Source: Tsuneonella troitsensis (lineage in GTDB: Bacteria; Pseudomonadota; Alphaproteobacteria; Sphingomonadales; Sphingomonadaceae). Taken from it: DNA of 64,000 nt. The notes beneath the pieces are model-generated. The model saw nothing but the letters and a program-made list of their open reading frames with translations. It searched no databases and was not told the DNA's origin. Made by a program: the position numbers and the translations under genes. Position 1 is the first letter of the stretch. Each line of letters opens with the position of its first letter. Shown piece by piece: positions 23,930 to 39,800 of the stretch. The stretch covers positions 248,001 to 312,000 of the forward strand of contig NZ_LMAU01000004.1 of the NCBI RefSeq assembly GCF_001441535.1. Direction: 5' to 3'.

Positions 23930-24300
23930 GAGATCGCTTTGCGAAAGGCTTCGGCCGGATGCAAGGGGATCGCTTGAGAGGAACGCCGGCGAAACCACCA
24001 TCGGCCGGTCTACCCGGTCTTTCGCCGAGGAGGCGTCGCGAAGGCTTCGGCCGGAACGATGCAACCGTTCGAAGCGGGAGCCAGGGAAATCGGTCTCGGA
24101 ACCGCCAGGCGGCACAGGAAAGGATCTTCGGATCCGGACCGACCACCTGAAGGAACCGGATGCCGGTGCGAGCGCCGGTGACAGAGCCCGACGGAACCGG
24201 TTTCGACCGGGAAAGAAAGGCAACGACACTGGGTGCCAAGTATCCCTCGGGATCCACGCGCTGGTGAGAGTGGGGTCGACCTTCGGGTCGGCCCCATTTG
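23930..24300 (+). ncRNA. Candidate structured non-coding RNA upstream of rlpA
   Basis: No credible ORF covers this 868-base gap, but the plus strand carries a series of hairpins and ends in a strong terminator. Visible stems include GGC-TTCG-GCC at about 23948 and again at about 24043 (within an imperfect direct repeat GGCTTCGGCCGGA), CCGCCAGGCGG at about 24102, GGATC-TTCG-GATCC at about 24122, GCCGG-N7-CCGGT at about 24163, CCGG-N5-CCGG at about 24197, and the terminator at 24272. Purine-rich single-stranded linkers (GGAACCG three times, GAAAGAAAGG) separate them. It does not match RNase P, tmRNA, 6S or SRP RNA by eye. The 5' end is not defined. Confidence 0.5.
24272..24299 (+). terminator. 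Strong intrinsic terminator of the candidate ncRNA
   Basis: GGGGTCGACC and GGTCGGCCCC pair around a TTCG tetraloop (one mismatch), followed by ATTTGCATTT. Since no coding gene precedes it for 580 bases, it implies a non-coding transcript or a very long argG 3' region. Confidence 0.8.
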
Positions 24301-24372
24301 CATTTCGGTCCCGAAATTTCGCCGCACCGCGCGGTCGCTGAAGCAGACCGAACTCTCCATTCCCCGACATCC

Positions 24373-24465
24373 TTAACCGCGCCGCGACTCGGAAGCCGGG
24401 CACGTGCCGTGGCTCGTAGGGTGTAGGAAAGCGGATCGGCGAGTCGTCAGCGGAATCATGGTTAA
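24373..24465. promoter_or_regulatory. Possible CtrA half-sites upstream of rlpA
   Basis: TTAACC at 24373-24378 and ATGGTTAA (reverse of TTAACCAT, a known CtrA half-site) at 24458-24465 lie 95-185 bases upstream of rlpA. They are not spaced as a full TTAA-N7-TTAA box. rlpA acts at the division septum, which would suit cell-cycle control, but the evidence is weak. Confidence 0.25.
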
Positions 24466-24559
24466 GGTTCCGAGTCCCCACGATGAACGGTGGCGCGGTC
24501 GGGGTGGAGCGAGCGCAAGGGGGTGCCGGAGTCCGATTCCGGGGTCTAAACCGCCCGCC

Positions 24560-25096
24560 ATGGACGGGAACACGCGTTTCGATGCCGCGAAGGCGCTGCG
24601 CACGCTGGCGATCGCCGCCGCGCTGGTGCTGCCCGCGTCGGCGAGTGCGCCCGCGCTGGCCGACGACAAGACGGCCGTTTTCGCCGCCAACTTCGCCGAC
24701 ATCGCCGTGCCGCAGGCCCACACCCCGGCAGCCGGCGCGGTGGACATCAGCACGATCGACCCCGCCGACGAGCTGGCCGAAACGGCAGAGCCCGGCCTGG
24801 GCGATCCGATCGGCAGCGGCGTGGCCAGCTACTACGCCGACAAGTTCAACGGTCGCCGCACCGCGAGCGGCGAGACCTTCCACAACGGCGGCTACACCGC
24901 CGCGCACCGCAGCCTGCCCTTCGGCAGCAAGGTCCGCGTGACCAATCCCGCCAACGGCAAGTCGGTCGTGGTCCGCATCAACGATCGCGGACCGTTCCAC
25001 GGCGGCCGGGTGATCGACCTGACGAAGTCCGCCGCATCGACGCTCGGCATCGTCCAGCGCGGCCACGGCCGCGTCGAACTCGCGCTCGTCAACTAA
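24560..25096 (+). CDS. rlpA: RlpA-like septal ring lytic transglycosylase
   Basis: RlpA proteins cleave peptide-free glycan strands at the division septum. The 178-residue protein has a signal peptide (ending APALAD) and a double-psi beta-barrel domain from about residue 87. The domain carries GVASYYADKFNGRRTASGE, then HRSLPFGSKVRVTN and INDRGPFHGGRVIDLT, which include the conserved Glu105, His116 and Asp142. There is no lipobox and no SPOR domain, so it is a short secreted form. The ATG at 24560 begins directly on the signal peptide. The region 24300-24559 holds only the leader. Confidence 0.9.
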   Translation: MDGNTRFDAAKALRTLAIAAALVLPASASAPALADDKTAVFAANFADIAVPQAHTPAAGAVDISTIDPADELAETAEPGLGDPIGSGVASYYADKFNGRRTASGETFHNGGYTAAHRSLPFGSKVRVTNPANGKSVVVRINDRGPFHGGRVIDLTKSAASTLGIVQRGHGRVELALVN

Positions 25097-25126
25097 GCCT
25101 TAGAACCCCGGCGCCAGCGCGGGACG

Positions 25127-25234
25127 TCAGTCCTGCTCGCTCGCCCGATCGCGGCGTATCAGCCATTCGCTGATCAGCATGGCCAGCATGAGTGTGCCGA
25201 CGACGGCAACGATGACGATGATGGTCTGGGACAT
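25127..25234 (-). CDS. Small single-span membrane protein
   Basis: This 35-residue ORF starts with ATG at 25234 after a GGGAG site. The product is almost all one hydrophobic helix (IIVIVAVVGTLMLAMLISEW) followed by a charged cytoplasmic end (RRDRASEQD). Its function is unknown. It is too short for certainty, but the ribosome site and the clean membrane-helix composition support it. Confidence 0.5.
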   Translation of the reverse strand: MSQTIIVIVAVVGTLMLAMLISEWLIRRDRASEQD

Positions 25235-25327
25235 TTGCGACTCCCGGGGAATACACGGCGGGAGCACATACGAGGCGTCTCTCTGTCGCGGCGAGGCCAT
25301 AAGGTCGGGCGCCGCGATGCGCACCCC

Positions 25328-26395
25328 CTACACGATTCCGCCATGAACGCCACCTGACGCTCCGCCCGCCACCGGCGCGCCGACGAGCCACCACTCGTCC
25401 TCTCCCGCCTCGAACGCGGCGAGCTGCGCGTCCTCTACCGCCTCGACGTTGTCGGGATCGATCTCTTCCGGCGTCGGCACACCGACCGGGCGCGCAGCCC
25501 ACATCGCATCGAACCGCTCGTCCGCCATATAACCGCATTCGTCCGGGTCGAGCTCCTCCCGGGGATCGTTGCAGCGCCCGCCGCAGCGATCGCACGGCGT
25601 TTCCCACCGAGCCAGCCGCTCCTCCTCGGCGCGCTTCGCCGCCCGCGCCGCCGCCGCCTTGGCAGAGGGCATGTCACACATGTCACACTGTCCAGGGGAG
25701 AAAGTAGGAGCCCCAGGAATGGGATCCGCAAGAGCCCGCTCGTCCTGAGCCTGTCGAAGGACGCGTTCACTACGGTCCGGCTCGTCCGGGATCAGCGGCA
25801 GCGCGGTGCCGCAATCGTCGCAGACCGGCGCGGGATCGTCGGTCCCGGCCTCGTAGCGCTCCAGCGCGCCTGCCAGGTCGTCGGCATAGGCGCGGGTGCG
25901 CGCGTCCTCGGTCAGTTTGTCGAGCCGCGCGAGGTGCGCGAGCAGCAGGCGGCTGTCGAAGCGGACGCGGCGGCCGACCTCCTCGCCGCGGAACCACACG
26001 ACCTCCTCCACCCCGTCGAGCGCGCGGCAGGCGAGCACATCCTCGCCCAGCGCGCGGGCGGAGAGCAGCGCCGCATCCCACGCGCGGGCAAAGGCGCGGT
26101 TGGCGCGCCGCTCGCGATAGACGGTGCGATAGCTGATCCCGATGGCGGCCGAGGCCCGCCGCACCTGCCCGCAATCAGCGAGCGCATGGAGGAACTCGAC
26201 CTGCCGCGCGCGGGTGAACTGCGTTTCCGGCCAAGAGCCTGCGCCGGACTCCGACGCGGAGGCGGCGGCGTCGGGCAACGCGTCGATGTGCTGCGCGAGC
26301 GTGGGTTTGGGGGTCGGGGCTGGCGTGGGAGTGGGTGCCGGCGTGGCGGCAGGCGCGGGAGCGCGAAAGACCTGGTGGGCAGGGATGTAGCTCAT
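25328..26395 (-). CDS. HTH protein resembling phage terminase small subunits
   Basis: The 355-residue product has a proline-threonine-rich N-terminus (residues 13-32), then a helix-turn-helix region with FTRARQVEFLHALADCGQVRRASAAIGISYRTVYRER, given here by its ends only: FTRARQ to TVYRER. This is followed by a helical part and, in the C-terminal half, three CxxC or CxxCG pairs (CDDCG, CDMCD, CDRCG) that could bind zinc. Related HTH proteins are common in sphingomonads and look like terminase small subunits, hinting at prophage origin; the function is not known. An in-frame palindromic repeat encodes VLRQAQDER in the middle. Confidence 0.65.
   Translation of the reverse strand: MSYIPAHQVFRAPAPAATPAPTPTPAPTPKPTLAQHIDALPDAAASASESGAGSWPETQFTRARQVEFLHALADCGQVRRASAAIGISYRTVYRERRANRAFARAWDAALLSARALGEDVLACRALDGVEEVVWFRGEEVGRRVRFDSRLLLAHLARLDKLTEDARTRAYADDLAGALERYEAGTDDPAPVCDDCGTALPLIPDEPDRSERVLRQAQDERALADPIPGAPTFSPGQCDMCDMPSAKAAAARAAKRAEEERLARWETPCDRCGGRCNDPREELDPDECGYMADERFDAMWAARPVGVPTPEEIDPDNVEAVEDAQLAAFEAGEDEWWLVGAPVAGGASGGVHGGIV
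25739..25768. repeat. REP-like palindromic repeat inside a coding gene
   Basis: The stem CGTCCT / AGGACG encloses GAGCCTGTCGA. This CCTGAGCCTGTCGAAGG sequence is a widespread interspersed repeat in sphingomonad and caulobacter genomes (from general knowledge). Here it lies in frame in the HTH gene and is translated on the minus strand as VLRQAQDER. Confidence 0.7.
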
Positions 26396-26561
26396 GGGGG
26401 CAGTCCGTTTGAGGGGAGATGGACCGCGTTATGTATGCGGGATGGGGGGCTGTAGGAAAATGGAACTTGACCCACCCACAAATTTGTCAATCAAAGTCGT
26501 CAGCAACTGCACAATTCTCGTACCAGGTCGTCGAGGTTTTGCAGATCAACAGGTTCAAGCG

Positions 26562-26590
26562 TTGACAATGTCCGATGACTAAATGCTAAA
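26562..26590 (+). promoter_or_regulatory. Promoter of the retron
   Basis: TTGACA at 26562-26567 is a perfect -35 box. With a 17-base spacer the -10 is GCTAAA (26585-26590). The predicted start is about 26597, exactly at the first base of the a1 repeat of the msr-msd RNA, which supports both calls. Confidence 0.65.
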
Positions 26591-26597
26591 GGAGCAC

Positions 26598-26723
26598 GCG
26601 TTGCCAGATTGGTTGCTGTGTGCGTTGTTACTGCGCATGATTCTGGAACTAAACACGTGCTCGCATCCAACGTTATGATGAGCGATCACCCGACGGTGAG
26701 ATGGTAGGAACATCTGGCAACGC
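26598..26723 (+). ncRNA. Retron msr-msd RNA
   Basis: A perfect 12-bp inverted repeat, GCGTTGCCAGAT (26598-26609) and ATCTGGCAACGC (26712-26723), encloses 102 bases and matches the a1/a2 arrangement of retrons. G26611, two bases after a1, is a candidate branching guanosine. Internal hairpins are seen at 26620-26638 (GTGCG/CGCAT, msr side), at 26659-26683 (GCTC-gc-ATC with GAT-GAGC, msd side) and at 26686-26699 (TCACC-CGAC-GGTGA). The element ends 14 bases before the reverse transcriptase start. At 126 bases it is shorter than many known retron RNAs. The msr/msd boundary is inferred, not seen. Confidence 0.8.
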
Positions 26724-26737
26724 AACCTCCCACACTT

Positions 26738-28342
26738 TTGCGAGTTAATTCGAAGCAAGACCTCGCTTGTGCAATCGGCATTCCTCTAGAACTGCTTGAA
26801 AGGCGGGCATTTGGGATTCCTCAACACATCTTATACTCTCGGCACGAGTATCCGAAGCGCGACGGAAGCACCCGCCTAATATATAGCCCCCACTGGCCAC
26901 TTCGGCATATTCAGTCGCGCCTTGCAAATCTTCTTGACGAAATATACGAACCATCAAGTCGAGTGAGTGGCTTTGTAAAAGGACGGGGGATTCGCTATAA
27001 TGCATCTCTACATGTCGGCAAACGCCTTCTTCTTAATTTCGATCTTTCTGATTTTTTCCCTACCATTCATTTTGGCCGAATACGCGGGCGACTTAGGGCT
27101 CGTCCCTATCAACTCAATGCCGTTATCGCGACAACCATCGCTCGGCTCTGTACGCTAGACGGAAATTTGCCGATAGGAGCGCCCAGTTCGCCGGTCTTAG
27201 CAAATATCATTTGCTCACATCTTGATGGATTACTAACCCGTTTGGCGCGAGAGCATGGTTGCTTTTACTCACGCTATGCTGACGACATCACGTTCTCCAC
27301 AAATCGACGCTCATTTCCCAACAGCCTCGCGACGGTTGATCACGAAAATGGATTAGCTGCAGTTGGCGCACTTATAAGTGCCGCCGTCACAGAGGCAGGA
27401 TTTATAGTAAATCCGCGAAAGACACGCATTCTTGATAAGAGCTCAAGACAAGAAGTTAGCGGAGTTGTAATAAATCAATTTCTGAATGTACCTCGCTCAT
27501 TTATGAGAGAGATACGCGGCGCATTGAATGCGTGGGAAAAGCACGGTCATATTGCATCAGAACAGTATTTTAAGGAAAAATACAACTGGCGATCGTCGCA
27601 GAGTTTTGAAAATCATTTGAGAGGCAGAATTCAGCACGTAATTCATATTCGCGGTTCTGATGATTTGGTGGTGTGGCGACTTGTTAATCGTTTTAACAAT
27701 CTTCCTGATCGGGCCCACTCAAGCATCTCATATGATAGACCTAAAGATGAACGAGATCGGTTATCGCTTGCGGTTTGCAGAGTTGAAAGCGGAAACGATG
27801 AACTGATGGAGTACAATCAGGGATCAGGAATCAAATTACCAAATGGTAATGTGTTGACGAATTTTCATAATATCGAAATTTGCGGCACGGTCGCACCGAT
27901 TATTGAGATTTATCTAACTGACAATGCTCCGGTTCCCGTGCCGATGCGAGTATTAAAGCATGATTTCGCTAAAGACGTTGCAATATTGGAACCAATTGAC
28001 CCTGAATGGAAAATGCCGATTGCTGCCGCAAGTGCGGAATTGAGCTTCTCCGAATGCAAAGTTGGCGACGACGTCAAGGTTGGAGGGTTCCCAAGCTATC
28101 AGCTAGGAGACAGTTGTCAGATAGCTACTGGCGAAGTCCGAGCATTTTCTAAGATTGAAGGTATCACATACTTTCGAGTTTCAGTACCGATCGTAAAAGG
28201 TAATAGCGGAGGACCAGTCTTCAACATTGACGGACAGGTGGTCGGTATAGCTAGTCGCGGAATTGACACGCATGAGATAACAAATGCGGCGTTCAACGGC
28301 TGCCTAGAGCTTTTTCGCTTCGAAAAATTCTTACAGTCGTAA
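26738..28342 (+). CDS. Retron reverse transcriptase fused to a trypsin-like serine protease
   Basis: The 534-residue protein has two parts. Residues 1 to about 320 are a retron reverse transcriptase with the NAxxH motif (NASLH, 88-92), motif A in NFDLSDFF (100-107), motif B GAPSSPVLAN, the catalytic YADD (180-183), NPRKTRIL and VSGVV (240-244). Residues about 340-534 form a trypsin-like protease with His377 in LTNFHN, Asp413 in AKDVAIL and Ser490 in GNSGGP, a complete triad. The start is taken as TTG at 26738, because an in-frame stop lies at 26705 and no ATG occurs before residue 256. The msr-msd RNA lies directly upstream. By analogy with other retrons it probably senses phage and releases a toxic activity, here proteolysis; that is inference. 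Confidence 0.92.
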   Translation: MRVNSKQDLACAIGIPLELLERRAFGIPQHILYSRHEYPKRDGSTRLIYSPHWPLRHIQSRLANLLDEIYEPSSRVSGFVKGRGIRYNASLHVGKRLLLNFDLSDFFPTIHFGRIRGRLRARPYQLNAVIATTIARLCTLDGNLPIGAPSSPVLANIICSHLDGLLTRLAREHGCFYSRYADDITFSTNRRSFPNSLATVDHENGLAAVGALISAAVTEAGFIVNPRKTRILDKSSRQEVSGVVINQFLNVPRSFMREIRGALNAWEKHGHIASEQYFKEKYNWRSSQSFENHLRGRIQHVIHIRGSDDLVVWRLVNRFNNLPDRAHSSISYDRPKDERDRLSLAVCRVESGNDELMEYNQGSGIKLPNGNVLTNFHNIEICGTVAPIIEIYLTDNAPVPVPMRVLKHDFAKDVAILEPIDPEWKMPIAAASAELSFSECKVGDDVKVGGFPSYQLGDSCQIATGEVRAFSKIEGITYFRVSVPIVKGNSGGPVFNIDGQVVGIASRGIDTHEITNAAFNGCLELFRFEKFLQS

Positions 28343-28525
28343 AGAATTGAGTTTTCCAACATTATTCATATCATGCGTATAGCGTGATGCGGAATGACCA
28401 CTGTTGTCACAGCTTTGACGGTTGTTAGCCCTTGTCTCACTAGCATCTTCTAGCGATTACCCTTCTTAGACCACCTAATGCGCAGATCGCTTTGGCGCTG
28501 CGAGGTTCCGGAAGATCGCCTGCCC

Positions 28526-31453
28526 TTACTCCGCCGCCACGCTCTGCCGCTCAAGCAACGGCGCAAGGTACTGCCCCGTGAAACTCCGCGGCTCGGCCGC
28601 CACCGCCTCCGGCGTCCCCTGCGCCACAACCTCACCCCCGCGCACCCCGCCCTCCGGCCCCAGGTCCAGCACCCAGTCGGCGGTCTTGATCACGTCGAGG
28701 TTGTGTTCGATCACCACGACCGAATTGCCCTGGTCCACCAGCCGCTGGAGCACTTCGAGGAGTTTGCGGACGTCCTCGAAATGCAGGCCGGTCGTCGGCT
28801 CATCCAGGATGTACAGCGTCTGCCCGGTGCTGCGGCGGCTGAGTTCCTTGGCCAGCTTCACCCGCTGCGCCTCGCCGCCCGATAGCGTCGTCGCCTGCTG
28901 GCCGACCTTGACGTAGCCCAGCCCCACCTCGTTCAGCATGTGCATCTTGTCGCGGATCGGGGGGACGGCCTTGAAGAAGCCCTCCGCGTCCTCGATCGTC
29001 ATGTCGAGCACGTCGGCGATGCTGAGGCCCTTGAACTTCACCTCCAGCGTTTCGCGGTTGTATCGCTTGCCGTGGCATTCCTCGCACGTGACGTAGACGT
29101 CGGGCAGGAAGTGCATCTCGATCTTGATCAGGCCGTCGCCCTGGCACGCCTCGCACCGGCCGCCCTTCACGTTGAAGCTGAACCGCCCCGCCTTGTACCC
29201 GCGCGCCTGGCTTTCGGGGAGGCCGGCGAACCAGTCGCGGATCTGGGTGAAGGCGCCGGTGTAGGTCGCCGGGTTGGAGCGCGGGGTGCGGCCGATCGGC
29301 GACTGGTCGATCTCGATCACCTTGTCGCAGTGTTCGAGGCCGGTGACCTTGTCGTGCGCGCCGGCGATCATCCGCGCGCCGTTCAGCGTGCGGGCGGCGG
29401 CGGCATAGAGCGTGTCGATCGTGAAGCTCGACTTGCCCGATCCCGATACGCCCGTGATGCAGCAGAACGTGCCCAAAGGAATGGAGGCCGTGACGTTCTG
29501 CAGGTTGTTCGCGCGCGCGCCGTGGACGGTGATCTTGTGCCCGTTGCCCTTGCGGCGCTTGGCCGGGATCTCGATCCGGCGGCGACCGGTGAGGTAATCG
29601 GCGGTGAGGCTGTTCTTCGCCCTGAGCACCTGTTTCAGCGTGCCCTGCGCCACGATCTCACCCCCGTGGACGCCCGCGCCCGGCCCCAGGTCGACCACGT
29701 GGTCGGCGGTGCGGATCGCGTCCTCGTCGTGCTCCACCACGATGACCGTGTTGCCGAGGTCGCGCAGGCGCTTCAGCGTTTCGAGCAGCCGGTCGTTGTC
29801 GCGCTGGTGGAGGCCGATCGATGGCTCGTCGAGTACGTAGAGCACGCCCGACAGCCCGCTGCCGATCTGGCTGGCGAGGCGGATGCGCTGGCTCTCGCCG
29901 CCCGACAGCGTGCCGCTGGTGCGGTCGAGGTTGAGGTAGTCGAGCCCGACGTTGTCGAGGAAGCCCAGCCGCTCGTTGATCTCCTTGAGGATCGCGCGGG
30001 CGATCTGGTTCTGCGTGTCGGTGAGCTGGTCCGGCAGGGCGAGGAACCAGTCCTTCGCCGCGACGACGCTCATCTGGGTGGGGGTGGCGATGTCGGTGGC
30101 ATTGGCACCCTGCCCGACCTTCACCGCCAGCGCCTTTTCGTTGAGGCGCTTGCCGTGACACGTCTCGCACGCCTGCGCGGTCTGGTACTTGCCCAGCTCC
30201 TCGCGCATCCACGCGCTTTCGGTCTGCAGCATCCGGCGGTTGAGGTTGCCGATCACCCCCTCGAACGCCTTCTTGACGGTGTATTCCTTGCGCCCGTCCT
30301 TGAAGGTGAGCGGGACCGCCCTGCCCTTCGTGCCGAACAGGATGGTGTCGCGGTGTTCGGGCGCGAGGTCCTCCCACGGGGTGGTGAGGTCGAAGCCGTA
30401 TTCCTTGGCGAGCGAGTTCAGCACCTGCATGTAATAGGGCGACGGCGGGTTGGATTTGGCCCACGGCACCACTGCGCCCTGCTTCAGCGTCAGCGCCTCG
30501 TTCGGCACGACGAGCTGCGGGTCGAACAGCAGTTTCTCGCCGAGGCCGTCGCACGCCGGGCACGCGCCCTGCGGGGCGTTGAACGAGAACAGCCGCGGCT
30601 CGACCTCCTCGATCGTGAAGCCGCTGACGGGGCAGGCGAATTTCTCGGAGAAGACGATGCGGTTGGCGGGCAGGCCGGCGCCCTTCATCGCGCCGCCCGC
30701 AGCATCCTCGCTTTCCCGGCCCGGCACCGCGCCGTCGGCGAGGTCGAGATAGACCAGCCCCTCGGCCAGCTTCAGCGCCTGCTCGAAGCTGTCGGCAAGC
30801 CGCGTCTGGATCCCGTCGCGCACCGCGATGCGGTCGACCACAACCTCGATGTCGTGCTTGTACTTCTTGTCGAGCGCGGGGGCTTCGCCGATCTCGTACA
30901 TTTCGCCGTCGATGCGCACGCGGGTGAAGCCCGCCTTCTGCCATTCGGCCAGTTCCTTGCGGTACTCGCCCTTGCGCCCGCGCACCACGGGAGCGAGCAG
31001 GTAGGCGCGTGTCCCTTCGGGCAGCGCCATGACGCGGTCGACCATGTTGGACACCGTCTGCGCCTCGATCCGCAGTCCAGTGGCGGGCGAATAGGGCACC
31101 CCCACCCGCGCCCAAAGCAGGCGCATGTAGTCGTAGATCTCGGTAACCGTCGCCACGGTCGAGCGCGGGTTGCGGCTGGTGGTCTTCTGCTCGATCGAGA
31201 TCGCGGGGCTGAGCCCGTCGATATGCTCGACATCGGGCTTCTGCATCATCTCGAGGAACTGCCGCGCATAGGCGCTGAGGCTCTCGACATAGCGCCGCTG
31301 CCCCTCGGCGTAGATCGTGTCGAACGCCAGGCTCGACTTGCCGCTGCCCGAAAGCCCGGTGATCACGATCAGGCTGTCGCGGGGAAGATCGATATCGATC
31401 CCCTTGAGATTGTGCTCGCGCGCGCCGCGGACGCTAATGTGGGTAAGGGACAT
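28526..31453 (-). CDS. uvrA: UvrABC system protein A
   Basis: UvrA is the damage-recognition ATPase of nucleotide excision repair and loads UvrB. The 975-residue protein has two ABC ATPase modules. The first has [13 protein letters not shown] and [12 protein letters not shown]; the second has [10 protein letters not shown] and [12 protein letters not shown]. Zinc-finger cysteines are seen at CPACDGLG and at CEACQGDG with [10 protein letters not shown]. Length is normal. A LexA box lies 12 bases upstream of the start, so it belongs to the SOS regulon with recA. Confidence 0.98.
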
Positions 31454-36824: not shown

Positions 36825-37661
36825 TCACACCCCTCCCGCTTGTGGGAGGCGAGATATCTCGCGCCGCACCTCGGTCAGGCGTTCCATCACCCGCACTATC
36901 GTGGGCCCGCCGCAGTAGAGCAGCGACGGATCGAACGGCTCGGTTCGCATCGCGGAGAGAGCGTCCAGCGCAGGGTGCTTCTGTCCGCGCTCCTGGCCTG
37001 CGACCAGCAACACCTGTGGCGGATCGGCGAGGAGCCTTTCCAGCGACAGGTAATCCGCCTGCCCCATCCCGCGCGCGGCGCTGTGATTGGCGAACCCGGC
37101 GCGGTCCATCAGGTCGCTGACGAGCGCGCCCTCGCCCGGAACGATGCCGTCCGGCTGCCAGAGAATGGCGGCAACCGGCGGACCATCGGGTCGCGCTGCC
37201 GCGACCGCGGCCTCGATCCGCCGAACCAAAGCCTCGCCCCGCTCCGGATGACCGGCAATTGCGGCCAGTCGGCGCACCTGGTCCGTGCTGTCTTCGACCG
37301 TGGCGGCGATGCCGACCGTCTCGACCCGCAGGCCCAGCCGACCCAGCGCGGAGCGGGTGGCGGGGGCCATGAAGCTGGAGCCGACCACAACGTCCGGATC
37401 GAGCGCGAGCACCTCCTCCACCGTCCCGCCGGTCGCGCGGAAGCGGCGGGCGTCGCCCAGCGGCATCGAAGTGGCGGCGGGATCGTGGCTGTAGTGGCTG
37501 ATCGCCAGCACTTGAGCCGGGTCGGCCACTTCGGCGAGAATGGCATCGGTGCAGGGGTTGAGGCTGACGACGGTCGGCAGACCGTCGCCGCCGCCCGTCC
37601 GCTCCGGCGGAGGCGCGGCGCATCCGGCAAGAAGCAGACAGGCGGCAAGCGTTGCCCTCAC
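36825..37661 (-). CDS. btuF: Cobalamin-binding lipoprotein
   Basis: The 278-residue product has a lipobox (LLAGC) and a periplasmic-binding-protein fold of the TroA/BtuF type: VVSLNPCTDAIL at the start of the first lobe, LALDPDVVVGSS, then a helical backbone and the second lobe. A GTG start at 37661 overlaps the btuB stop (GTGA). It hands cobalamin from BtuB to BtuCD. The lipid anchor is less usual than the soluble enterobacterial BtuF but common in other phyla. Confidence 0.85.
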   Translation of the reverse strand: MRATLAACLLLAGCAAPPPERTGGGDGLPTVVSLNPCTDAILAEVADPAQVLAISHYSHDPAATSMPLGDARRFRATGGTVEEVLALDPDVVVGSSFMAPATRSALGRLGLRVETVGIAATVEDSTDQVRRLAAIAGHPERGEALVRRIEAAVAAARPDGPPVAAILWQPDGIVPGEGALVSDLMDRAGFANHSAARGMGQADYLSLERLLADPPQVLLVAGQERGQKHPALDALSAMRTEPFDPSLLYCGGPTIVRVMERLTEVRREISRLPQAGGV

Positions 37662-39508
37662 AGCTTGAGCCGCGCCCCGACGAATGCGGTGCGGCCGCGC
37701 GTGCCGTAACCGGCGACCTCGACATAGTCGGTGTCGAACAGGTTCTCGACGCGGCCGTAAAGCTCCAGCCGCTCGCCCAGCGGCACGCTGGCGCGCAAGT
37801 CGAACAGGGCATGGCCGTCGATCGGCACGCCGTTGGCGGCATCGTCGAAGCTGTCGCCCACCAGCCGCACGTCACCGCCGATGGTCGCGTCCGCCAGCGG
37901 CGTGCGCCAGTCGGCCGATCCGGTCAGCGCATGGCGCGGACGGCGGGCGAGATCGGTCCCTGCGGTCCGGTCGGTCGCCCTGGTGAAGCTGTACGCGACC
38001 TGCGTGCGCAGCGCGGGCGCGGGCGACAGGCCCAACTCGACTTCGAAACCCTCGGCCCGCGCGCGGCCTACGTTGTCGTAAGTCCCAAACGGCCGACCGG
38101 TGCAGATGCCGCCGGAGATGCCGAAGCAAGAGACGAAATCGATGAGGTTGGTCGCATCGCGCCGGAACAACGTGACCGCCGCGTGGGTCGCATCGCTGCG
38201 GGTCCGCCACGCAAGGCCCAAGTCGAAGCTGCGGCTCCGCTCGGGCTGCAGGGCCGGGTTGCCGAAGTCGGACAATAGCTGGAACAGGCTGGGCGCCTTG
38301 AACCCCTCTCCATACGATGCGCGCAGACGGAAGCCGTTGCCCAGCCCATAGCTCGCATCGGCACCCAGGCTGGTCTCCCCGCCGAACCGGGCGTGGCGAT
38401 CGTGCCGCACGCCGGCGTGCGCCGAAATGCCACCGAATTCTATTCCGGCCTGCGCATAGGCGCCCCAGATGTTCGTCTTCTGCGGCGCGTCGAACGCGGT
38501 TTCGAACCGGGTCCATTCGCGCTCACCGCCGAAGTGAACCACGACCGGCCCGATCGGTCGCCACTCCCCGCGCAGATCGGCCCGGCGCGACGATCCGTCG
38601 GTGGCGTAGGTCGGCGCGCTGCCGCCAGTGGCGGGATCGAAACTCTCGCGCTCGGTATCGGCGAACGAATAGGTCGCGCGCAGATACAGCAGAGGACTGT
38701 CGTAGATCGCCCCGGTCGCACCGGTGTACTGCCGCGTGTCCTGTCTCTCGGCGGTGTCGGCAAACGCGAACAGCGGCGGCGGAAACCCGTCGATGTCGAG
38801 TTCGCCCTTGGCATAGCGGCCCGACGCGAACAGCTCGACCCGGTCGGACAGATAGGCGCGCACCTGCCCATTGGCGGACCACTGCTCGAAACCGTCGGGT
38901 TCGGTGCCCGTCGCGGCTGCAGAGAAGCCGTCCGATCGCTGCCAGCCGCCCGACCCGCCGATGAAGAAACGGTCCGATCCCGCGCCGCCGCTGGCGGTCA
39001 GGTACGTGCTGTCGTCGCCGCCGTATTCGGCGCTGGCGTTGAGGCCGCGCGTGGCACGCGTGGTCACCAGCAGGACGCCGCCGATCGCATCGGATCCCCA
39101 GATCGTGGAGTTTGAGCCACGCACAAGATCGAGCTTCTCGACCTCGCCCGCAGCCAGGTTGCCGAAATCGAAGCCGCCGCCCGGCGCCGCCGTATCGGCC
39201 ACGCGCACACCGTCGACCAGGACCAGCAGTTGCTCAGCCGCCGCGCCGCGCACGCGAACGCCGGTGAACGAGCCCGGAGGGCCGTTGCGGGTAATCGTCA
39301 CGCCCGGCGCGCGGCGCAGCACGCGGGCGATGTCGGCGCCCTGCACCTCGTCGATCTCGTCCTCGCCGATGACGGTCACCGACTGGCCGGTGTCGGTCAC
39401 GTTGCCGCGCGCGCCGGTGGCGGTGACGGTGATGCCGGTGTCGTCGTCCTGTGCCGCGAGCGGAGACGCGAGGCAGGCCGAACCCAGAAGAAACAGAAAT
39501 TTACGCAT
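37658..39508 (-). CDS. btuB: TonB-dependent vitamin B12 receptor
   Basis: This 616-residue outer-membrane receptor has a signal peptide (ending SPLAAQ), a TonB-box-like segment (DTGITVTATG), a plug domain (IGEDEIDEVQGADIARVLRRAPG, in part ADIARVLRRAPGV; then VLVDGVRV and GSDAIGGVL), and a 22-strand barrel ending GARLKL. Plug and barrel are complete. The cobalamin riboswitch in its leader supports B12 as ligand. The ATG at 39508 begins on the signal peptide. Confidence 0.92.
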   Translation of the reverse strand: MRKFLFLLGSACLASPLAAQDDDTGITVTATGARGNVTDTGQSVTVIGEDEIDEVQGADIARVLRRAPGVTITRNGPPGSFTGVRVRGAAAEQLLVLVDGVRVADTAAPGGGFDFGNLAAGEVEKLDLVRGSNSTIWGSDAIGGVLLVTTRATRGLNASAEYGGDDSTYLTASGGAGSDRFFIGGSGGWQRSDGFSAAATGTEPDGFEQWSANGQVRAYLSDRVELFASGRYAKGELDIDGFPPPLFAFADTAERQDTRQYTGATGAIYDSPLLYLRATYSFADTERESFDPATGGSAPTYATDGSSRRADLRGEWRPIGPVVVHFGGEREWTRFETAFDAPQKTNIWGAYAQAGIEFGGISAHAGVRHDRHARFGGETSLGADASYGLGNGFRLRASYGEGFKAPSLFQLLSDFGNPALQPERSRSFDLGLAWRTRSDATHAAVTLFRRDATNLIDFVSCFGISGGICTGRPFGTYDNVGRARAEGFEVELGLSPAPALRTQVAYSFTRATDRTAGTDLARRPRHALTGSADWRTPLADATIGGDVRLVGDSFDDAANGVPIDGHALFDLRASVPLGERLELYGRVENLFDTDYVEVAGYGTRGRTAFVGARLKL

Positions 39509-39611
39509 GAATACTCCCACGATGAACGAACACGCCGTTCATGGCGGGAGGAACCCCGGACACGGGGAGCCCTCGCTGCATTCCGGTACACCCCGCCCGG
39601 CTGCGGAACGA

Positions 39612-39800
39612 CCGTCACAGGCAGGTCTCCTGGCTCCCGGATCGACGCTTTCCCGCCGCCTTCCCATCCCCGGCATGGCCGGGGACAGTGGCATGTGGCG
39701 GGATCGCTCCCCGGTCACAGTTGCGGGGGCAGCGCGGGTATCTCACCCGCTTCCCTCTTCGGCTCCCTTGCGGGAACAACCCATGACGTGGCCGCCGCGA
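39612..39800 (-). promoter_or_regulatory. Cobalamin riboswitch
   Basis: On the minus strand the conserved core GGGAAGCGGGTGAGATACCC is followed by the B12 box GCTGCCCCCGCAACTGTGA. Further down comes the 3' element GCCAGGAGACCTGCC, about 105 bases before btuB. These are the diagnostic blocks of the AdoCbl riboswitch. High B12 is expected to shut off btuBFCD. Boundaries are approximate. Confidence 0.95.

Follow-up and report, generated by a model that had tools for sequence, protein, structure and literature searches.

Retron Eco2 is described as a trimer in which the msrRNA bridges the RT-Toprim proteins, and its authors propose that the msdDNA keeps the effector occluded until the phage nuclease DenB lifts this block (PMC12405507). 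The same paper lists a protease as one of the domains found in fusion with retron RTs (PMC12405507), in line with the initial annotation of the locus analysed here, which had noted RT-protease fusions in surveys of retrons. Outside retrons, the Hachiman, AVAST, Lamassu and DRT nuclease-protease pairs are described as systems in which a fused trypsin-like protease activates the nuclease and the nuclease gene lies immediately upstream of the protease gene (PMC12799240). RT-protease retrons are catalogued already, but among the papers listed we found no test of the protease effector class and none that deals with how a type XI retron acts (most subscription-journal retron papers lie outside the searched set); the text of PMC12548924, on new retrons, contains neither type XI nor a protease. 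New in the present analysis are a probable upstream RNA, a confident fold model, the lack of a conserved neighbour and an exchange slot beside uvrA.

The whole stretch of Tsuneonella troitsensis DNA that was analysed, 64 kb in length and hereafter called the window, contains the following gene and gene parts:

26738..28342, + strand: RT-protease fusion gene assigned to retron type XI, 534 aa, TTG start (open reading frame, Pfam, PADLOC)
26741..27718, + strand: RT part, approximately residues 2-327, with NAxxH at 88-92, YADD at 180-183 and VSG at 240-242, and with the predicted fold of the retron Eco2 RT (Pfam, PADLOC, fold match)
27746..28339, + strand: predicted HtrA/Deg-type serine protease part, residues 337-534, with His377, Asp413 and Ser490 and without a PDZ domain (Pfam, alignment, model)

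The fusion gene is a single intact frame of 534 codons with 0 internal stops. Its product matches RVT_1 at residues 39-243 (4e-22) and Trypsin_2 at residues 362-504 (1.4e-15) in Pfam, which confirms the observation of a retron RT fused to a serine protease. The motifs reported in the initial annotation, namely, NAxxH (here NASLH, residues 88-92), YADD, VSG, His377, Asp413 and Ser490 of GNSGGP, all stand in the translation at the positions given there; the numbering was checked by the invariant columns of a six-member alignment, and the naming of NAxxH and VSG as retron motifs follows that annotation. Two PADLOC models of RT-Protease_XI match the protein over nearly its full length, at residues 3-515 of 534 (1.3e-141) and 3-516 (1.2e-140), consistent with the view that effector and RT are one protein. 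Matches to the next-best models, RT-TIR_XII and RT-Toprim_I-C, are confined to the RT part; the listed I-C models reach residues 3-341 at most, with no Toprim there, the C-terminal part being the protease. On the strength of the near-full-length match, the fusion is classified by its sequence as a divergent member of retron type XI, a kind already catalogued. The earlier interpretation, in which the RT belonged to the retron clades and a position outside them would have spoken against it, is thereby partly supported: it was right in kind, as the RT falls among type I-C, XI and XII RTs in PADLOC and in two trees, the type number can now be supplied, and the protease is re-placed as HtrA-like.

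For comparison with relatives, genome contigs were scanned with the six-member alignment as query (80 loci taken of 480 confirmed), as were viral contigs with the same alignment (80 loci taken of 379). Among the 173 RT ORFs read from genome-scan, viral-scan, order-genome and plasmid loci, 63 carry a protease (profile E < 1e-5), and 62 of these, including the fusion protein of the window, are distinct and make up the type XI alignment. The best full-length relatives among the matches listed in the genome-contig profile scan are approximately 35% identical to the window's protein. The RT catalytic Asp pair and His377 are kept in 62 of the 62 aligned proteins, and Asp413 and Ser490 in 61 each, so that the full protease triad noted at the outset is present in all but one copy (L005, from genome G205), which ends after the protease His; this conservation suggests that both activities are under selection. 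The middle residue of the VSG motif is Thr in 61 of the 62 rows and Ser in the window's protein, a variant of VTG. Of the 296 genomes from the bacterium's own order, nine, counting that of the bacterium itself, reach 1e-80 against the type XI model; three of the nine loci have a protease part (the window, G221 and the shortened copy in G205), five have none, and one (L011) extends past the end of its contig.

Among 163 RT parts placed in one tree, the RT of the window forms a long branch amid mixed RT-protease and other retron RTs, outside the alphaproteobacterial type XI clade of which G221 and Sphingomonas corticis are members. It is again unplaced in a smaller tree of 52 rows, for which 27 rows were taken from the 62 of type XI and 25 from the remaining 101. 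RT-protease fusions form one clade in 0% of 200 bootstrap trees of the 52-row set, and the fusion state changes 12 times on the 163-RT tree, with at least four changes forced, and nine times on the 52-row tree. Although the two trees suggest multiple origin of the fusions, the AU test does not reject a single clade (p 0.14), and multiple origin is not claimed. For the protease part, the closest sequences are those of other type XI proteins (best 1.7e-18), and two host Trypsin_2 outgroup proteins are absent from its best 15 matches. As a separate observation, six Nostocales RTs near type XI (L072, L073, L079, L089, L091 and L100) have no fused effector and share a gene of 178-292 aa located 0-35 bases downstream, which carries an RNIASH motif in one sequence and presumably resembles a HEPN nuclease.

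The predicted model of the fusion protein, a monomer built with 53 aligned members, has a mean pLDDT of 93.3 and a pTM of 0.78. The nearest solved folds to its RT part are retron RTs, Eco2 being closest (residues 1-328 versus 9lm3_A: Z 33.0, rmsd 2.3, 321 aligned, 33% identity). Residues 337-534 of the model are most like HtrA/Deg proteases, with Deg2 (5ilb_A) at Z 25.4, rmsd 2.2 and 183 aligned residues, and DegS (3lh3_A) at Z 24.8, rmsd 2.9 and 184 aligned. No PDZ domain appears in the Pfam scan, the protein ending at residue 534 inside the protease fold, and at 41.6 bits it misses the NCBIfam degP_htrA_DO cut-off of 416.2 bits. The C-terminal part is thus modelled as an HtrA/Deg-type protease fold without PDZ, the domain that regulates true HtrA enzymes. 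The designation ‘trypsin-like’ in the initial annotation holds for the fold and the triad but not for the finer placement, given the HtrA/Deg nearest folds and given Pro484, which in the window's protein stands six residues ahead of the nucleophile, where trypsin has Asp. Asp is likewise absent from the eight commonest residues of this column, which together account for 52 of the 62 type XI rows. Trypsin specificity is therefore doubted: with Pro rather than Asp at what we take to be the S1-pocket position, tryptic cleavage by this protease would seem unlikely.

Upstream of the RT, the sequence contains a candidate for the RNA component:

26598..26723, + strand: probable msr-msd non-coding RNA gene (inverted repeat and fold; no covariance-model confirmation)
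26598..26609, + strand: arm a1 of a 12-bp inverted repeat (repeat search)
26712..26723, + strand: arm a2 of this repeat, separated from the RT start codon by 14 bases (repeat search)
26620..26638, + strand: hairpin after a1, judged by eye to be similar in geometry to the msr hairpin that covaries in relatives (fold)

The 12-bp inverted repeat is exact, and no repeat of equal length arose when the 335-base upstream region was shuffled 1000 times; at such spacing, 12-bp repeats occur at four other places in the window, corresponding to an expectation of approximately 0.02 per 335 bases. Across the family, repeats of at least 10 bp are found in 33 of the 62 type XI upstream regions, versus three of 62 shuffles and two of 58 downstream controls, and are missing from the other 29; those of at least 12 bp are found in 20 upstream regions versus none of the shuffled and none of the downstream control sequences. 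The fold of 26590-26732 is stabler than 198 of 200 shuffles (z -2.65). The hairpin following a1 was compared in 32 relatives (23 type XI and nine sister RTs without protease, drawn from loci with a repeat of at least 10 bp, six of 38 having been dropped): 84.4% of cells are paired, and the covariation score is 0.600 versus 0.253, reached in 0 of 500 shuffles, a significance that is optimistic because loci and columns were picked by eye after the sequences had been read. No clear Shine-Dalgarno sequence is visible at 26724-26740 before the TTG start, the second repeat arm ending 14 bases ahead; given this arrangement, translation of the RT may be coupled to folding of the RNA.

Two covariance models were built with the window left out. 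The first (R1), from 31 RNAs belonging to type XI RTs or their sister RTs, gave no match at 26598-26723, either with default filters or with filters off (24000-31000); the two matches that it gave with filters off (E 1.8 and 3.2) fall within the fusion gene and across the 3′ end of that gene. Among 34 held-out type XI loci, R1 recovers 17 at E ≤ 1 and eight at E < 0.05, all on the right strand and at the 5′ end of the RT, in a test that is less affected by selection, some of the loci (such as L076, L099, L108 and L065) having near relatives in the training set. The second model (R2), from 29 type I-C RNAs, scores 2.3 bits at 26598-26723 (E 7.3, rank 22 among the 38 matches within 7 kb), which is not significant; it finds the RNA of a retron from another flanked slot (L022) at 2.5e-18, a check of the search rather than an independent control, as the RNA of the same retron (as L010) is in the R2 training set. 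Rfam contains no family matching the retron locus, the lone match at E ≤ 1 being a snoRNA (E 0.09) far below the cut-off. Judged by position and repeat, the RNA of the window is probably an msr-msd RNA that is divergent in sequence. Elsewhere in the window, Rfam identifies a cobalamin riboswitch at 39603-39799 on the minus strand (126.5 bits), upstream of the gene at 37658-39520, which we take to be TonB-receptor-like.

The less expected result of the analysis concerns the place in which the retron resides:

26466..28525, no strand: low-G+C foreign insert filling an exchange slot, ends approximate (G+C, alignment of relatives)
25328..26395, - strand: left slot flank, HTH/terminase-small-subunit-like gene (conserved beside the slot)
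28526..31453, - strand: right slot flank, uvrA, 975 aa (conserved beside the slot)

Both flank names are our own presumptive assignments, and the left gene has no Pfam match at 0.01. G+C content is 0.46 over 26451-28450 versus 0.65 for the window. The block at 26393-26465, just before the insert, could be aligned in 12 of the 38 regions fetched; the insert itself ends approximately at the uvrA stop codon. In a region search of 40 genomes, the bacterium's own included, uvrA was matched in all, and there were 0 matches within the retron in the other genomes. Eighteen regions were fetched first, 13 with both flanks, and 20 by the left gene, 17 with both flanks and three ending at a contig edge; together with the window, this yields 31 flanked slots from genomes chosen by their flanks and not by defence content. 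All 31 hold 1.6-3.6 kb of varying cargo between the flank matches and fall into 26 cargo groups (blastp 1e-5), the only linked slots being those of three retrons, two NACHT proteins and the pairs G299/G387 and G175/G353. A PADLOC scan covered 40 ORFs from the 31 slots, not every ORF of each; 38 of the 40 have a G+C content of at most 0.54, and 14, from 12 slots, have a match at 1e-15 or better, with none at this level in the other 19 slots. RTs or RT pieces occur in seven of the 31. Besides the type XI gene of the window, which is counted in these figures, the identified cargo includes:

G271, G253: RT-Toprim I-C (PADLOC)
G274: UG17 RT with SLATT (PADLOC)
G297: Drt2 (PADLOC)
G298, L025 1886-2825: pieces only of Drt8 and PD-DExK, a decayed defence cassette (PADLOC)
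G068: UG13a RT (PADLOC)
G025: HEC-06 (PADLOC)
G288, G255, G294, G219: candidate families PDC-S39, PDC-M70A, PDC-M38A and PDC-S49, respectively (PADLOC)
G149, G177: NACHT proteins (Pfam)

A control scan of 37 other window proteins yielded three PADLOC families, one protein each, all of them mad models, so that 14 of 40 in the slots compares with at most three of 37 (p 0.006, Fisher). In some slots, the cargo appears to be metabolic or toxin-like and not defensive. For instance, L226:1298-2776 carries a Tle1-like phospholipase domain (1.7e-76) and L223:1175-2110 encodes a thymidylate-synthase-like protein (1.7e-26), neither with a PADLOC match at 1e-5. Three further ORFs (L211:4345-5271, L219:4051-4941 and L222:2762-4456) match neither PADLOC nor Pfam and are candidate new defence genes.

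Extra partial uvrA 3′ ends lie beside the true one in four slots (L023 3964-4200, L037 3597-3705, L032 3010-3070 and L217 3682-3778), the copy in L023 being 80% identical at the protein level and separated from uvrA by further ORFs; these copies look as if cassettes had arrived together with the uvrA end of the donor. In the G299/G387 pair, the cargo proteins are 93% identical, but the cargo DNA is less alike than that of uvrA (80% versus 89%), giving no sign of recent cassette transfer between genera. No integrase was seen by eye among the insert ORFs, and a prophage was rejected, the window otherwise consisting of core genes, presumably recA, uvrA, rpoA, secY, adk and suc and mdh genes. Among the literature matches listed, no paper was found that names uvrA as such an exchange site.

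We consider it fairly probable that the locus is a self-contained type XI retron, consisting of one gene and an upstream msr-msd RNA, that acts as an msDNA-gated, HtrA-like abortive-infection protease. The RT, as expected from its family, would copy part of the upstream RNA into msDNA and remain bound to it; by analogy with Eco2, the nearest solved relative, the RNA-DNA hybrid would keep the fusion proteins in an inactive assembly, in which the RT-msDNA scaffold may gate the C-terminal protease in place of a PDZ domain. Phage damage or change to the msDNA would then free the protease, which would cleave host or phage proteins and stop the infected cell before phage release. In its favour are the active sites kept across the family, the upstream repeat, the Eco2-like RT fold and the defence genes found in the slot of relatives; the two covariance models and the 29 type XI upstream regions lacking a repeat of at least 10 bp weigh against it. 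We infer the msDNA, the oligomer, the gating, the trigger, the substrate and the phage phenotype; the papers listed gave no experimental work with type XI retrons, so that the gating step is drawn from analogy.

Alternatively, the protease might be a processing enzyme that cleaves a pro-effector encoded elsewhere, or the fusion itself to yield free protease, comparable to the situation of the Hachiman and AVAST pro-nucleases. Activation of a nuclease by a protease in the Hachiman, AVAST, Lamassu and DRT pairs (PMC12799240) provides a precedent, and self-release would need no partner gene. However, in the pairs described there, the nuclease gene lies directly upstream of the protease gene (PMC12799240). 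In the window, the fusion gene is flanked by the HTH-like gene and uvrA, with no adjacent pro-nuclease gene, and clustering of 573 neighbouring ORFs, taken at the 62 type XI loci from up to 5 kb away or as far as the contig end, revealed no gene family in more than five loci at blastp 1e-6, a threshold that remote similarity could escape. The largest group, from five loci, lies 0.3 to 3.7 kb off, on either side and either strand, and two further groups comprise three loci each, too rare and scattered for a partner gene of type XI. This makes a dedicated pro-effector appear unlikely, judging from gene neighbourhoods, and disfavours the partner processing that the initial annotation had also considered; we regard the processing explanation as a whole as unlikely.

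Still less probable is a decayed or non-producing retron, with the fusion gene intact but an RNA that is no working msr-msd and no msDNA-dependent function. The failure of both covariance models to recognize the RNA, the TTG start and the long RT branch would fit such decay, but the ORF and both active sites are intact, the 12-bp repeat is perfect and the upstream fold is stabler than nearly all of its shuffles (198 of 200, as given above). A function in housekeeping or stress that has nothing to do with phage, such as that of an HtrA-like quality-control protease, would accord with the HtrA fold; it is very improbable for a protease that sits behind an RT, presumably with no room for a signal sequence, that is absent from most relatives (three protease-bearing loci, and one more cut by a contig end, among the nine matches in 296 order genomes) and that is part of a low-G+C insert in an exchange slot. 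Finally, DRT-type RTs fill the same slot in relatives, which raises the question of whether the RT is a DRT-kind defence RT rather than a retron, the upstream repeat being incidental. The NAxxH and VSG motifs, the best PADLOC matches to retron types XI, XII and I-C, the retron RTs as nearest solved folds and the repeat at the position typical of the family leave this explanation barely plausible.

Returning to the msDNA-gated protease, a wider version can be put forward tentatively, although we hold it to be rather doubtful as a whole. HtrA proteases are trimers whose activity is switched allosterically. Type XI retrons might, in general, be HtrA proteases gated by msDNA, with the RT-msDNA assembly serving in place of PDZ as sensor and allosteric switch; RNA bridging of the Eco2 kind would join three protease domains as an HtrA trimer, phage attack on the msDNA would elicit a proteolytic abortive response, and the uvrA slot would be a family-wide, RT-rich exchange site for compact immune cassettes. 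If this holds, the slot is a place to find new compact immune cassettes. With a cassette of approximately 2 kb and no partner gene apparent, whether a retron can act by proteolysis becomes a directly testable question, and the slot offers a way to collect more such systems, considering that 12 of 31 slots contain strong PADLOC matches and seven contain defence RTs; the low-G+C genes without a PADLOC match in several slots are candidates for new defence genes.

Compared to known systems, the locus shares with other type XI retrons an RT of the same clade, a C-terminal serine protease encoded in the same gene and an upstream inverted repeat (the last in 33 of 62 members), but differs from them in its identity of only approximately 35%, in an RNA missed by the covariance model of the members and in an RT on a long, unplaced branch. 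With retron Eco2/Ec67 (type I-C, RT-Toprim), it has in common the fusion of RT and effector, there together with msDNA, whereas the Eco2 effector is a Toprim RNase (PMC12405507) and that of the window a protease. In the HamMAB, AVAST and Lamassu systems, too, a defence protein is fused to a trypsin-like protease domain; there, this domain is N-terminal and activates a pro-nuclease encoded upstream (PMC12799240), in contrast to the C-terminal protease of the window with no partner gene apparent. HtrA/Deg proteases (DegS, DegP and Deg2) resemble the C-terminal part in predicted fold (Z ~24-25), in the His-Asp-Ser triad and in GNSGGP, from which the protease of the window is set apart by the lack of PDZ and by its fusion behind an RT.
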